This document shows, one piece after another, positions 1,918-45,209 of a stretch of 64,000 bases of DNA. Where the stretch lies: contig NZ_AUCC01000007.1 of the NCBI RefSeq assembly GCF_000429565.1, positions 1 to 64,000 of the forward strand. Direction: 5' to 3'. This DNA comes from Arsenophonus nasoniae DSM 15247. Lineage in GTDB: Bacteria > Pseudomonadota > Gammaproteobacteria > Enterobacterales > Enterobacteriaceae. Position numbers and translations under genes: made by a program. The notes below the pieces were generated by a model. That model worked only from the letters and a program-made list of their open reading frames with translations, was not told the origin of the DNA and searched no databases. Numbering within the stretch: the stretch's first letter is position 1; each line of letters opens with the position of its first letter.

Positions 1918-2796
1918 ATAAAATATTCCTTAGGTTCGGTACTTTATTATTGGTCAAAAGAAACATTAATTCAGTTTTATCAAAATGCGATTAATAGTAG
2001 TGCGGATATTATTTATCTTGGTGAAACGGTTTGTAGTAAACGTCGGCAAATGCAAGTAGCTGACTGGCTTGAACTGGCAAAAGAAATCACTTTACATGGT
2101 AAACAAGTAGTAATCTCTAGCTTGTCTTTATTGCAAAACGCGGCCGAACTTAGACAAATCGCTAAATTGGTCGACAATGGTGAATTTTTAGTGGAAGCGC
2201 ACGATTTTGGTGTCGTTAATCAGCTTATTGAGCAAAAAATACCTTTTATGGCAGGATATGGACTCAATTGCTACAATGCTTATGCATTACAACTACTCTA
2301 TCGCCAAGGCATGATACGCTGGTGCTTACCAATTGAACTTTCTCGTGATTGGTTACAAGATCTGCTTTATCAATGTGAACAGCTAGGATTTCGCCACAAG
2401 TTTGAAGTTGAAGTGTTTGGCTATGGGCATTTACCCCTGGCCCTGTCAGCTCGCTGTTTTACTGCCCGCTCAGAAAATCGCCATAAAGATAACTGTGAGA
2501 CATGTTGTGAAAAATATCCCCAGGGCAGAAAAGTTTTTTCCCAGGAAAATCAATTACTCTTTACCCTTAATGGCATTCAGGCACAAAGTGGCTACTGTTA
2601 TAATCTCGGCAATGAACAAACTTCAATGGCCGGATTAGTCGATATTGTCCGCATCTCTGCCGAAAATCTAGCTTCACTCACCATTTTGGAACAATTTAGA
2701 GCCAATCAACAAGGTAAGTATCCTCTCACATTAACTAATGATTTAAATTGCAACGGTTATTGGCGACGTGCAGCCGGTTTATCGCTTATACCATAA
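1918..2796 (+). CDS. ubiV: UbiV, Fe-S subunit; apparent AUA start codon
   Basis: Partner of UbiU in the oxygen-independent ubiquinone pathway. Homology to E. coli UbiV begins at an ATA codon (1918-1920) reading (I/M)KYSLGSVLYYW, preceded by TAAGG seven bases upstream. From there the product is 292 residues, the E. coli length. Cluster cysteines C39, C180, C193 and C197 are all present in this reading. No ATG, GTG or TTG lies in frame between the upstream stop at 1906 and the ATG at 2050. Initiation at 2050 would give 248 residues and would lose C39. So either AUA is used weakly or the protein is crippled. The rest of the frame (ENRHKDNCETCCEKYP, CNGYWRRAAGL) is well conserved. Confidence 0.85.
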   Translation: MKYSLGSVLYYWSKETLIQFYQNAINSSADIIYLGETVCSKRRQMQVADWLELAKEITLHGKQVVISSLSLLQNAAELRQIAKLVDNGEFLVEAHDFGVVNQLIEQKIPFMAGYGLNCYNAYALQLLYRQGMIRWCLPIELSRDWLQDLLYQCEQLGFRHKFEVEVFGYGHLPLALSARCFTARSENRHKDNCETCCEKYPQGRKVFSQENQLLFTLNGIQAQSGYCYNLGNEQTSMAGLVDIVRISAENLASLTILEQFRANQQGKYPLTLTNDLNCNGYWRRAAGLSLIP

Positions 2797-6336: not shown

Positions 6337-6561
6337 ATGTATGTCTTTGATTTATTAATATTATTACTCCAACAAATGTGTGTTTATTTAATTATCGCCT
6401 GGATACTTAGTAAAACTCTTTCAAAAAAGTGTCCGCTTTTTCTTGACCACGACACTTTTGCTGAAAATAGTTAGGCAAAATTAGTATTAAGTAATGACCA
6501 ACCTATTCCAATCAGCCGTCGCTATCTAAAAGCCTTTAAAGAGGCGTTAGGATTATGTTGA
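6337..6561 (+). pseudogene. btsS-btsR: In-frame deletion scar fusing btsS start to btsR end
   Basis: The first 30 or so codons read MYVFDLLILLLQQMCVYLI then AWILSKT, a near match to the N-terminus of the pyruvate sensor kinase BtsS (YehU). After a short junction the same frame reads ENS, a TAG stop (6472), then AKLVLSNDQPIPISRRYLK and AFKEALGL, matching the LytTR C-terminus of its response regulator BtsR (YehT). The TAG stands where E. coli BtsR has Gln, so it is a C-to-T nonsense change. A deletion of most of both genes has therefore joined the two ends, leaving about 74 codons. The system cannot be functional. It lies between the export operon and deaD, although E. coli keeps btsSR near 47 min. 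Confidence 0.85.
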
Positions 6562-29693: not shown

Positions 29694-30665
29694 ATGAATT
29701 TAGAATCAATTATCAATCTAACTGCAAAAGATATGGAAGCGGTTAATAAAGCAATCTTGAATCAATTGAATTCAGATGTCCACCTCATTAATCAACTAGG
29801 TCACTATATTATTAGTGGTGGCGGAAAAAAAATTCGGCCCATGATTGCTATTCTGGTTGGAAGAGCACTAGGTTATGAAGGAAAAAAGCATATTAATGTA
29901 GCAGCATTGATTGAATTTATTCATACCGCAACGTTACTACATGATGATGTTGTTGATGAGTCGACCCTGAGGCGCGGTAAAAAAACTGCAAATGCTGTTT
30001 TCGGTAATGCTGCCAGTGTATTAGTAGGAGACTTCATTTACACCCGCTCATTTCAAATGATGACAGAGCTTGATTCTATGCCTATTTTAAAACTGATGTC
30101 TGATGCAACAAATGTCATCGCAGAAGGTGAAGTTTCACAATTAATCAATTGTAATAATCCAGACATCACCGAAAGTACCTATATGCAAATAATATATAGT
30201 AAAACTGCACGCCTATTTGAAGCAGCGACACATGCATCAGCGATCGTATCAGGCGCTAATGAAACCCAGCAGCAAGCCTTGCGAGATTATGGTCGTTATC
30301 TTGGTACTGCCTTCCAACTGATTGATGATCTTTTGGATTATGACGCGGATAGTACTACTATTGGCAAAAATATCGGCGATGATTTAGATGAGGGAAAGTT
30401 AACACTACCTCTACTTCATGCAATGAAAAAAGGCACCGCAGAAGAATCCGCACTTATTCGTAACTCAATAGAAAAAGGTAATGGGCGCCATTTACTTAGT
30501 GCTATATTAATTACCATGAAACGCTGTGGCTCTCTTGAATATACCCGCGACCGAGCTAGAGAGGAAGCCGATAAAGCGATTAAAGCTCTCGATATCTTAC
30601 CTGATACATCTTATAAAGATGCTCTGATCAGCTTGGCTTGCATTTCCGTTCAACGCCTCTCGTAA
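29694..30665 (+). CDS. ispB: Octaprenyl diphosphate synthase IspB
   Basis: Makes the C40 side-chain precursor of ubiquinone and menaquinone. At 323 residues it equals E. coli. The two aspartate-rich Mg sites are LLHDDVVDESTLRRG (near residue 83) and LIDDLLDYDAD (near residue 210); GGGKKIRP is the substrate-binding motif near residue 45. Divergent from rplU. This keeps quinone synthesis possible even though the anaerobic ubiUVT branch nearby is damaged. Confidence 0.97.
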   Translation: MNLESIINLTAKDMEAVNKAILNQLNSDVHLINQLGHYIISGGGKKIRPMIAILVGRALGYEGKKHINVAALIEFIHTATLLHDDVVDESTLRRGKKTANAVFGNAASVLVGDFIYTRSFQMMTELDSMPILKLMSDATNVIAEGEVSQLINCNNPDITESTYMQIIYSKTARLFEAATHASAIVSGANETQQQALRDYGRYLGTAFQLIDDLLDYDADSTTIGKNIGDDLDEGKLTLPLLHAMKKGTAEESALIRNSIEKGNGRHLLSAILITMKRCGSLEYTRDRAREEADKAIKALDILPDTSYKDALISLACISVQRLS

Positions 30666-30685
30666 TAAAACTTCTCTGGAACAGC

Positions 30686-31078
30686 TCATCCTGTTCCAGA
30701 GTGATCTTCTTCCACTAATATCACTTCACAACAATTGATATAACCAATTAACTTTTCCAATCCTTCCCGTAAAATAAATTTAATAATTTTTTCACGCTCT
30801 TTTTTTGTTAATTGTTTATAAGCTTCAACCCAAATTAAAAAAGCATCTTGTCGTTTCCCTTTGCCTCGATAATCAATAGAGTTATCATTTAGTGATAATA
30901 CATTAAATACATCTTCAGGCAGACTACTAACATGATATTCAACAGCTTTGCCTTGGACTCCACGTTTTCGACGTTGCTCCCAACCTTCCCTGCGAGCCAT
31001 TAGGTTGATACCTTGTGGTGATGAAGGCAAACCAACCAATCCAGCGAGTTCTTTCGCGGTATACCATTCTTTTTTCAT
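30686..31078 (-). CDS. Mu-repressor/MuA-type DNA-binding protein
   Basis: A 130-residue protein whose N-terminal 65 residues form a Mu-type winged helix (HTH_Tnp_Mu_1): WYTAKELAGLVGLPSSPQGI, then LMARREGWEQRRKRGVQGKA and YHVSSLP. This is the DNA-binding domain shared by the phage Mu repressor c and MuA transposase. The C-terminal half has no catalytic residues and is rich in K and E (LTKKEREKIIKFILREGLEKL), so a repressor-like regulator is more likely than a transposase. It is convergent with ispB and divergent from the Ner-like sfsB, recalling the c/ner arrangement of Mu. E. coli has no gene here. Confidence 0.8.
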   Translation of the reverse strand: MKKEWYTAKELAGLVGLPSSPQGINLMARREGWEQRRKRGVQGKAVEYHVSSLPEDVFNVLSLNDNSIDYRGKGKRQDAFLIWVEAYKQLTKKEREKIIKFILREGLEKLIGYINCCEVILVEEDHSGTG

Positions 31079-31648
31079 AATTTTCTCGCATCACTTTTGG
31101 TATTAATACATAACCTAATTCTGCAAATCTAATCGTTAAAAATGGTGGCTTTCTTGATTATTTTTTTCTTTTTAAAACCCTCCAAATTTCTTAAACATAG
31201 AAAAATCATTGAATAAAATCGCAGGGGTATTTCTTTTTTTATGTTTTGCAAATATTGTTCTCCTTTTTACTATCATTATTAACTAATTTTTTTTCTATTA
31301 ATATCGGACAAATTATTTTATAACTATTAATTCTAAGGAATTAATATGAATTAAAGATTTTTATTTTTGTCATTCTATTATACTGAATTAATATAACTAG
31401 AATTAATTATTTACACTCCTAATAAATTGAAGAAAACCTCACTATATTTCCTAAAATATCTGTAAAATTTCTCTATTTTTTGCAATCAAGTTCAAAAAAG
31501 AGATTTTTAAGAAAAAAATAAGAAACTATTAAAGAAAAAAAATGTTATTTTATTTCTAATAACAAGTTCTAGTTCGAAATACATGTGAGAACTATCTGTT
31601 ATTTATACCACTAACACAGCAATATATTTAATAGAAAAAGGATTAAAA
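31079..31648. promoter_or_regulatory. Long AT-rich divergent regulatory region with repeated half-sites
   Basis: 570 bases without a gene between the Mu-type regulator and sfsB. A cluster between 31325 and 31408 repeats GAATTAAT: an inverted pair with 9-base arms (31325-31333 and 31338-31346, spacer TAAG), direct copies at 31385-31393 and 31400-31407, and a weaker copy at 31348. The cluster lies between two DNA-binding protein genes and could be an operator. The rest is very AT-rich with no recognisable gene remnant. Confidence 0.45.
31325..31408. repeat. Cluster of GAATTAAT half-sites
   Basis: Five copies of an 8-9 base word, two of them forming a perfect 9-base inverted repeat with a 4-base spacer. 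AT richness raises the chance rate, but the GC-containing ends and the perfect dyad make it notable. Confidence 0.5.
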
Positions 31649-31924
31649 ATGATTTCACAGAAATCTGATTGGCATCCTGCGGATATTATTGCAGCGCTAA
31701 GAAAACGCGGAACAACATTAGCAGCTATATCAAGACAGGCAGGTTTAAGCTCTTCTACCCTAGCCAATGCTTTATCTCGGCCCTGGCCAAAAGGAGAATG
31801 GATAATTGCAAACTTTTTAAACCTTCATCCCTCTGAAATATGGCCTAGCCGTTATTACGATTTCAATACAGGAGAATTATTAGAACGAAATATTCGTCAG
31901 CCTACTAATAAAAATAACGAATAA
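31649..31924 (+). CDS. sfsB: SfsB (Nlp), Ner-like transcription regulator
   Basis: A 91-residue protein with the Ner-type helix-turn-helix fold (WHPADIIAALRKRGTTLAAI, GLSSSTLANALSRPWPKGEW, EIWPSRYYD), very close to E. coli SfsB/Nlp, a homologue of phage Mu Ner. In E. coli it has been linked to maltose gene expression; its own targets are poorly known. An AAAAGGA ribosome site precedes the ATG. In E. coli it sits between ispB and murA; here murA is absent downstream and mdh follows. Confidence 0.93.
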   Translation: MISQKSDWHPADIIAALRKRGTTLAAISRQAGLSSSTLANALSRPWPKGEWIIANFLNLHPSEIWPSRYYDFNTGELLERNIRQPTNKNNE

Positions 31925-31933
31925 ATTATAAAA

Positions 31934-31959
31934 AAACCGCAGACTCATATCTGCGGTTT
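31934..31959. terminator. Bidirectional terminator between sfsB and mdh
   Basis: Stem AAACCGCAG/CTGCGGTTT with an 8-base loop, A-run before and T-rich after, between two converging genes. Confidence 0.75.
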
Positions 31960-31982
31960 ATTATTTAATGAAGTTAATAATA

Positions 31983-32921
31983 TTATTTATTAATAAAATC
32001 TTCGCCTAATTTAATATCTTTATTGAGTGTCTCTAACATATTTTCCAATTTATTTTTTTCATGTGTATTCATAATATTAATAGGTAATCTTTCTTCAATA
32101 CCATTTTTACCTAAACGTATTGGCTGAGCAAAAAATCGCGCATATTCACCATCACTTTCTACATAAGCGCACTCAATTATATTTTCTTTACCATTTAATG
32201 CTTGAATTAATGATAAACCAAACCGTGCTGCTGCTTGTCCCATGGAAAGTGTCGCTGATCCGCCACCCGCTTTTGCTTCAACAACTTCAGTACCCGCATT
32301 TTGAATACGTTTAGTTAGCTCCTCGGCTTCCTGTTCAGTAAAGTTAACCGTTGGAATTTGAGAGAGTAACGGTAGAATCGTTACGCCTGAATGGCCTCCA
32401 ATAACCGTCACTTCAATTTCTTGCGGTTTTTTACCTTTTAATTCAGCAACAAAAGTGTTAGAACGGATAATATCTAAGGTTGTTACCCCAAATAGTCGAT
32501 TTCTATCATACACGCCAGCTTTTTTTAATACTTCTGCAGCTATCGGAACGGTGGTATTAACCGGATTAGTAATAATACCAATTAACGCCTTAGGACAGCT
32601 ATGAGCCACTTTTTCTATCAGATTACGCACGATACCGGCATTGATATTAAACAAATCTGAGCGATCCATTCCCGGTTTCCTGGCAACACCTGCCGAAATT
32701 AATACTACATCGGCACCGTCAAGTGCAGGTGTCGGATCTTCACCAGCAAAGCCAATGACCTTTACATCTGTTGGAATATGGCTTAAGTCTTTAGCAACAC
32801 CAGGAGTCACAGGAGCAATATCATAAAGTGAAAGCTCTGAGCCTGATGGAAGCTGGTTTTTAAGAAGAAGTGCAAGTGCTTGACCGATACCACCTGCTGC
32901 CCCAAGAATAGCTAATTTCAT
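31983..32921 (-). CDS. mdh: Malate dehydrogenase
   Basis: NAD-dependent TCA cycle enzyme, malate to oxaloacetate. 312 residues, as in E. coli. The NAD motif GAAGGIGQA is at residues 7-15, the mobile loop arginines R81 and R87 lie in [12 protein letters not shown], and the catalytic His is in IGGHSGV (near 177). Divergent from argR across a 416-base spacer, the same pairing as in E. coli. Confidence 0.97.
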
Positions 32922-43182: not shown

Positions 43183-45209
43183 CTACCAGATACGGATTCT
43201 CTCTTTAGGTGCCAGATAAAGCTTATGCTCTTTTTCTACCTTAAAGGCTGCATACCAATCATCCATATTACGTACCACGCCATTGGCACGATAGGGATTC
43301 GGACTATGGGGATCAGTCATAATTTTATTACGCTCGGACTCTTTATTCGCTAACTCCCGCCACGTTCTCGCCCAGGCAATAAAGAAGCGTTGTAACCCCG
43401 TCATTCCATCAATAATCGGCGGTTCACCATTTGGATAATGTTCTTTAGAAAATTGCTTATAAGCATTGAGGGCAATATTTAACCCACCGAGATCACCAAT
43501 ATTTTCACCTAGAGTGAGTTTACCGTTAACCGTTAAACCATCAATTTTAAACCCATTATACTGCTTAATAAGTTTGGCGGTTTTTTCTTTAAAATGCCGC
43601 TGTGAAGCCGCTGACCACCAGTTTCTTAATTGCCCAGTTCCGTCATAAAGGCGACCTTGATCGTCAAAGCCATGTCCCATTTCATGCCCGATCACCGCTC
43701 CAATGGCACCATAGTTATAAGCAGGATCAACATTTTGGTCAAAAAATGGCGCTTGCAAAATAGCAGCCGGGAAAACAATTTCATTCTGAACGGGATTATA
43801 GTAAGCATTAATTGTTTGTGGCGTCATCCCCCATTCCCACTTCCTGACTTTTTCACCGATCCTGCTCATATTATCTTGATAGAGCCAGTTTTGTACTTGC
43901 AGATAATTGTCGAATAATGTATCTGGTTGCAAGTGCAGGGTACTAAAATCATGCCATTTTTCAGGGTAACCAATTTTAACTGTAAATTGGTTAAGCTTAT
44001 TTAGTGCTTCCTGGCGGGTTTGTTTATCCATCCAGTCATTATTTTGCAAACGAGTTTTAAAAGTCCCTTTGACATAGCTCACCAAATTTTGGATCTTATT
44101 TTTAGCCTCAGGATCAAAATAAGTTGCAACATAAAGTTGCCCCAATGGCTCCCCTTGTAGTTTATTAACAATTTCTAATGCCCGTTCTTTACGTGAACGC
44201 TGTTGTTTAATACCATTTAATTAGCTTGAATAAAAATTAAATCGAGCATCAGAAAAAGCTTCATTCAAGTAATTGGCTTTACTACTCAGATAATGGAAAA
44301 GTAAGTAGTCTTGTAAGGTAGATACCGGGGTATTAGCCAATATTTTTGCCAGTTGCTGAACTGCACTGTCATTTTCTACGATAACTTTGGCAAGTTGTTC
44401 ATCAGAAAGTTTCCATTGTTGAATAAAACCTTGCCATTGATAATCTGGCGTAAACTTGTTCAATTGGCTAAGCGACATTGGATGATAATTTTTCAACGTG
44501 TCACGTGCAGATTCTGGTGTCCAATGAACTTTTGCCAACGATTTTTCTAACGCAAAAATTTGCTTAGCCTTTAATTGCGTTTCTTTTTCTCCAGCTAATT
44601 GTAAAATAGTGGCAATATAAGCGACATAATCCTGACGGATAGTCTCCATCTGTTTAGTCTTATCCAGATAGTAGTTTCTATTATAAGCCTAAACCCCCTT
44701 GTCCTAGATAAAGAACATAAATATCAGGTGCTTTTGCATCCAACCCAATAGGAAATAAATGGCATATAACCTGGTTTTGCCATTAGATTAGTAATATCAG
44801 CATGAGTTTTTGCCTGCTTTATATTATTAAGCGCGTTTTGTACCGGCATTAAACCTGCTTTTTCAACCGCCGTTTCATTCAAATAGCTGCGATAAAGATT
44901 ACGGATATTGCGTTGATTATGATTAAGCTCACTTTCCGGTTGAACTTCAAGTTTATTTATCAGTGCTTGCAGCTGTTTTTCTGTTTTGAGATATAACTCA
45001 ACAAAGGAATTAATGCGTGACATTCCAGCTGGGATTTTTGCATGGTTTATCCAATCCTGATTAACATACTGATAAAAATCATTACCCGGAGAAATGGAAT
45101 CAGTTAGCGTGATTTTTTGTTCGCCGTAAGTAACGCCTTTGGCAACAGCAAAAGAGGAAGCTGTCAGAGCAGACAGACTAATAAGTAGTGCTAACACAGT
45201 TTTTTGCAT
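43183..45209 (-). pseudogene. pepO: PepO-like M13 metallopeptidase, broken by three lesions
   Basis: A neprilysin-family zinc endopeptidase gene of about 675 codons. It starts with a signal peptide (MQKTVLALLISLSALTASSF) and the typical SISPGNDFYQYVNQDW. The reading frame shifts near 44745-44757 (sequence continues as PIGLDAKAPDIYVLYLGQGG in another frame). It shifts again near 44685, where two bases appear lost before NRNYYLDKTK, and it carries an in-frame TAA at 44221-44223 (FNFYSS-stop-LNG). The 3' part is intact with the zinc site HEMGH, the ligand motif GENIGDLGG and the terminal RIRIW. The full-length enzyme cannot be made. The well-kept sequence implies recent inactivation. Confidence 0.93.

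Follow-up and report, generated by a model that had tools for sequence, protein, structure and literature searches.

Loss of the ubiV AUG start codon in Arsenophonus nasoniae suggests early decay of the ubiTUV genes

In Escherichia coli, ubiT, ubiU and ubiV are each needed for ubiquinone (UQ) synthesis under strict anaerobiosis (PMC6747719). Work with an E. coli menA mutant indicates that the ubiquinone made anaerobically serves nitrate respiration and uracil synthesis, and Fnr controls genes of this pathway (PMC10470549). A second line of work relevant here concerns AUA as a start codon. Staphylococcus aureus starts infC, ccpN and citZ at AUA. Reporters carrying the ccpN or citZ site reached about 10% of the AUG level in poor medium and, for ccpN, up to 30% in rich medium; among strains of the NCTC 8325 lineage the citZ AUA is conserved (PMC13009471). 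As these sites function, AUA at a start position does not on its own prove that a gene is lost. For insect symbionts, PMC5091035 names ubiquinone for Hamiltonella and Regiella. In a limited look at the literature under Arsenophonus and ubiquinone we met no account of ubiTUV in this genus, which is no proof that none exists.

We analysed the first 64,000 bases (hereafter, the window) of an 82 kb contig of Arsenophonus nasoniae DSM 15247, using gene lists made up of mechanically called open reading frames (ORFs). The ubiTUV locus lies at the beginning of the window and has the following features:

1–284, + strand: 3′ end of an insertion sequence, consisting of the tail of a transposase frame and then the border at 284, which adjoins CAAG; it has 19 matches in the genome, the window copy included.
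285–657, − strand: ubiT (SCP2 domain), codons 1–124 of about 172; beyond them the ORF continues into insertion-sequence DNA, with its stop at 277.
658–913, no strand: promoter region of the divergent ubiT and ubiU, for the most part conserved among congeners.
914–1903, + strand: ubiU, an open frame whose product scores 537.2 bits against NCBIfam UbiU (cut-off 440).
1906–1917, + strand: ubiV leader, with the in-frame stop TAA 1906–1908 doubling as the beginning of TAAGG 1906–1910, followed by seven bases; identical in the sister genome G001.
1918–2796, + strand: ubiV, 292 codons plus stop, with ATA where the start codon belongs and the frame otherwise open.
2050–2796, + strand: 248-residue ORF, the sole ORF of the ubiV frame for a caller that accepts ATG, GTG or TTG; it is without the first 44 residues and C39.

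The original prediction held that homology to UbiV begins at ATA 1918, with TAAGG seven bases before it, and that the next usable start, ATG 2050, would cost C39, one of four [4Fe-4S] ligands. Each of these points was borne out. The ATA (1918–1920) is the codon that aligns with the first residue of the UbiV family, both in the alignment to relatives and in the match to NCBIfam UbiV NF047965 (338.5 bits, cut-off 275), which covers residues 2–288. The frame is open between TAA 1906–1908 and TAA 2794–2796 and, read from 1918, includes all four cluster cysteines: C39 (TGT 2032), C180 (2455), C193 (2494) and C197 (2506). The numbering and the CXnCX12CX3C motif follow E. coli UbiV as given in PMC6747719, with which the status of C39 as a ligand agrees. 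The product thus carries the profile match and the four cysteines of a UbiV protein, and its gene lacks a common start codon at the family N-terminus.

A codon-by-codon reading of the ubiV frame from 1909 to ATG 2050 found no ATG, GTG, TTG or CTG. The near-cognate codons before ATG 2050 are ATA 1918, ATT 1969, 1990, 2008 and 2011, and ACG 2026. An in-frame start further upstream is ruled out by TAA 1906, and a frameshift fusion of ubiU to ubiV is impossible, as ubiU ends at TAG 1901–1903 and the ubiV frame has TAA 1906. The four ATT codons and ATG 2050 do lie in the ubiV frame, and any of them might in principle give a shortened functional UbiV, a reading that we find hardly conceivable: the ATT starts would drop 17 to 31 residues within the family profile, no Shine–Dalgarno site was seen by eye before these codons and none that is convincing before ATG 2050, and the start at ATG 2050 costs C39. 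When C39A was combined with C193A C197A in E. coli UbiV, the reconstituted iron fell from 2.4 to 1.9 per protein; on top of C180A C193A C197A, C39A brought a drop from 0.7 to 0.1 (PMC6747719). Both are effects in combined mutants.

To place the ATA codon phylogenetically, we read the homologous codon in 34 other genomes. It is ATG in 33, GTG in one and ATA in none, whereas a regulated non-canonical start of the infC AUU type would be expected to be conserved among relatives. The 34 genomes comprise three congeners, two Vibrio and 29 of the 90 other genomes matched in the family search. Of 40 loci, three (L004, L005 and L006) lack the N-terminus and were omitted, two genomes represented twice (L003/L037 and L007/L038) were each counted once, and the position read was moved by one codon in two loci (L015 and L017) whose match began at residue 2. 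The nearest congener, G001 (97% protein identity), has the leader ggataaggcgaaaaa, identical to that of A. nasoniae, followed by ATG, and ATG is also found at the ubiV start of congeners G003 and G006. On this comparison, the change at the ubiV start is one G-to-A substitution, private to this genome among those read. In total, 13 UbiV positions, the start included, deviate from residues common to at least 95% of 31 loci. Just three amino-acid changes relative to the sister, M1I included, could be assigned to this branch (seven codons remained unplaced), so most of the 13 deviations are older.

A base error in the draft assembly, with the gene truly starting at ATG, would produce the same picture. 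The genome is a 3.67 Mb draft of 296 contigs, the base was read in one record and the change involves a single base. However, the frame around the ATA is clean, and the start codons in the rest of the window are well preserved: for 43 sister ORFs of at least 100 residues that align with the window, the homologous codon is ATG, GTG or TTG in 41, ATA in one (ubiV) and ACG in one. The ACG case, the only exception among the 42 ORFs other than ubiV, is probably a start-choice artefact, the window copy starting at an ATG a few codons downstream (191 versus 187 residues). No ATA start besides that of ubiV was found among these 43 ORFs in the aligned part of the window. The lesions in ubiT and ubiU described below suggest that the set is degrading anyway, yet they do not show that the ATA base is correct. 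Taken together, we consider an assembly error very unlikely.

The alignment with the sister also brought out two differences elsewhere in the window. A 677-residue sister ORF corresponds to three ORFs at 43183–45209 (− strand), a further broken gene, and about 12.8 kb is present in G001 between the parts homologous to window positions 6406 and 6435, having been either lost here or gained there.

The second lesion of the locus lies in ubiT. The gene has 172 codons in G001, and the A. nasoniae copy breaks at CTTG, with other DNA beyond. The part in the window matches Pfam SCP2, and the missing part is found on contig C25 from base 330, where it takes up the sister's gene at the very next bases, with no target duplication at the CTTG/GTCT junction. 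As the SCP2 domain of E. coli UbiT spans residues 45–133 (PMC6747719), ubiT is cut inside this domain. A different stretch beside the ubiT remainder on C25 is taken for the other end of the inserted element. Borders were read for 12 of the 19 matches to this element in the genome, and all 12 adjoin CAAG (five, the window's own included) or GAAC (seven). IS91-like elements go into sites beside GAAC or CAAG and leave no target duplication. The element in ubiT sits next to CAAG without a duplication, and from this target habit it is putatively IS91-like. The 39-residue transposase end has no Pfam match, and a stretch identical to it is annotated just as 'transposase' in an A. nasoniae plasmid. 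These last 39 residues are found at a level of at least 99% in 41 plasmid records, and among the matches listed (eight) all are from A. nasoniae. Relatives of the transposase end occur in 251 plasmid records, most often from Serratia (65), Klebsiella (65) and Arsenophonus (52). In the A. nasoniae genome itself, 7 of the 19 element matches begin within 50 bases of a contig start.

The third lesion lies in ubiU. The frame is open and has an in-frame 6-base deletion near 1075 that removes two residues. All 31 family and Vibrio loci read there keep both residues, as do G001 and G003, and likewise G006, which gave no row at the deletion site and was read from a DNA alignment instead. Small in-frame deletions in UbiU need not be harmful, as UbiU of G001 itself lacks one residue near its start. 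Before ubiU, TTGACTACAATCGA at 870–883 resembles an Fnr box, and we presume it to be a candidate site; it is unchanged in G001 and G003 and differs by one base in G006. No intact set of ubiT, ubiU and ubiV is thus present in A. nasoniae: ubiT is split, the ubiU frame is open minus two residues and ubiV is without AUG.

These lesions bear on whether the AUA could be a working, attenuated start, at which fMet-tRNA would initiate at a low rate, aided by TAAGG and the nearby ubiU stop, and provide enough UbiV. Such a start finds a parallel in the S. aureus reporters, in which AUA sites do give output (PMC13009471), and it agrees with the seven-base spacing from TAAGG to ATA, with the intact remainder of the ubiV frame and with its ordinary dN/dS (below). 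Nevertheless, we consider it unlikely. ATA is absent from all 34 other genomes read, the leader matches that of the ATG-bearing sister and has no compensating change, and the partner genes ubiT and ubiU are also damaged. In addition, infC has retained both its AUU start and an uninterrupted frame, so that starts of this kind should be discriminated against as usual. The further possibility that low-rate translation from AUA persists and is tolerated, as for the AUA-started genes of S. aureus, with ubiV kept as an attenuated enterobacterial gene during host adaptation, also seems to us quite unlikely. A relaxed IF3 that eases AUA initiation was considered as well; with the AUU and the frame of infC both retained, we found no ground for it.

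Codon 9 of A. nasoniae infC (L073, contig C4) is ATG. It is a threonine codon in G001, G003, G006, G007 and G008 and ATG also in G004; G005 is shorter there, and G002 (L080), one of the nine infC loci, gave no row. This in-frame AUG could bypass the AUU-based self-control of IF3.

We next examined ubiTUV in nine Arsenophonus genomes, that of A. nasoniae included. Matches were found in six genomes for ubiV, five for ubiT and eight for UbiU, but in G002, G004 and G005 the UbiU match is just a longer relative of about 450 residues with 33–35% identity. Only G001 of the nine has all three frames open. In G003, ubiT has stops, ubiU is frameshifted and ubiV is open; in G006, ubiT is open, ubiU and ubiV are frameshifted and ubiV also has stops. 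In G008, a genome rated 72% complete, ubiT is spread over two frames and interrupted by a stop, UbiU is in fragments that contain stops as far as residue 152, and of ubiV just the final 20 residues are left. G005 retains a short remnant of ubiV and gave no match for ubiT, and neither ubiT nor ubiV was matched in G002, G004 and G007, the last of which has no UbiU match either. Of the eight other Arsenophonus genomes, seven therefore have ubiTUV genes that are broken or gave no match. The lesions differ between species, which points to loss on several independent occasions within the genus.

In G008, an 81-base stretch (contig C7, about 343730–343810, loci L056/L057) is 93% identical to the presumed other end of the A. 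nasoniae element and sits where the UbiU fragments stop, near residue 152. A related element may thus have cut ubiU in that genome.

To estimate how old the decay in A. nasoniae might be, we compared substitution rates with the sister. dN/dS was 0.078 (ubiV), 0.072 (ubiU) and 0.080 (ubiT, remaining part), against a median of 0.075 for the other window frames; the values come from a hand-made list of 35 frames (32 besides ubiTUV), and seven to nine differing codons per ubiTUV gene could not be assigned to a branch. Judging from these ratios, the ubiTUV genes were under ordinary constraint until recently. A long-relaxed ubiV pseudogene is unsupported. Because its dN/dS matches that of other window genes, ubiV was either lost recently or is still functional: the ordinary ratio fits a very recent loss and would fit equally a gene still in use.

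We also asked what could make the pathway dispensable. The A. nasoniae genome encodes three TIGR01988 aerobic hydroxylases and menA, all above cut-off. Neither narG nor napA was found above cut-off in any of the nine genomes, the best A. nasoniae scores being 49.9 bits for narG (cut-off 1084) and 129.4 bits for napA (cut-off 930.55). G001 shares the hydroxylases and menA and likewise has no nitrate reductases, and its ubiTUV frames are nevertheless open. Lost nitrate respiration was therefore rejected as the sole cause: the absence of nitrate reductases cannot alone explain the loss of ubiTUV, as G001 shares this absence and keeps the genes. The hydroxylases, menA and the missing nitrate reductases would make the loss tolerable; they do not tell why it happened here rather than in G001. 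A molybdopterin-oxidoreductase-like gene on contig C37 (about 29870–32209) consists of frames of 459 and 363 residues, compared with one frame of 823 residues in G001, and may also be broken in this genome.

Our best reading of the locus, drawn from comparative sequence evidence, is early pseudogenisation, with a regulated AUA start disfavoured. We think it likely that a G-to-A change in this lineage turned the ubiV AUG into AUA, that the output of UbiV has consequently dropped to a small fraction of what it was, or to nothing, and that this is one of three lesions in ubiTUV. A single substitution would have left UbiV absent or too scarce, the insertion sequence would have split ubiT so that a truncated UbiT works badly or not at all, and the two-residue deletion in ubiU might leave a shortened UbiU that is similarly impaired or inactive. 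Ubiquinone synthesis independent of O2 would thereby be abolished, a loss presumably tolerated in the insect, where the aerobic route and (demethyl)menaquinone would suffice. For ubiV taken alone, the intact body of the gene and its ordinary dN/dS are counted against this reading.

The original prediction had left a choice between a very low-expression gene and a gene on its way to loss. Decay of the pathway is favoured over mere low expression because the partner genes are damaged, the ATA occurs in no other genome read and the leader is unchanged. The second option is accordingly supported, by an ATA found in 0 of 34 other genomes, a leader that does not differ from that of the ATG-bearing sister, the split ubiT, the deletion in UbiU and the broken or unmatched genes of seven of eight congeners. 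The first may hold in part through residual initiation at AUA, and the two options are compatible. If this reading is right, an enterobacterial anaerobic pathway is being given up piecemeal in an insect-associated genus, with lesions differing by species. The locus would also illustrate that loss of a start codon can silence a gene whose frame is whole, in which case an ORF caller records a shortened gene and not a pseudogene. It opens no new question in translation and is best seen as ordinary, recent pathway loss in an insect symbiont.

Compared with described systems, the locus resembles UbiTUV (YhbTUV) of E. coli in its divergent ubiT and ubiU–ubiV units (PMC10470549), in the presence of the UbiV cysteines, in UbiU and UbiV profile scores above cut-off and in the SCP2 match of the ubiT part. 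It differs from the E. coli system in that ubiV has no accepted start, ubiT is split and UbiU is two residues short. Like infC, ccpN and citZ of S. aureus, ubiV has AUA at the start of an otherwise normal gene. However, an extended Shine–Dalgarno sequence is predicted at infC and ccpN of S. aureus, whereas the ubiV leader is unchanged from that of a sister with ATG, and the output of the ccpN and citZ AUA codons was measured, whereas the ubiV AUA is known from sequence and its partner genes are damaged (PMC13009471). The combination of selfish elements and small, lineage-specific lesions is like that of pseudogenes in recently host-associated insect symbionts, as described in PMC5091035 for genes freed from selection. 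Unlike the symbiont pseudogenes of that account, ubiV has its lesion on the start codon, its frame is whole and a shorter ORF is reported in its place.
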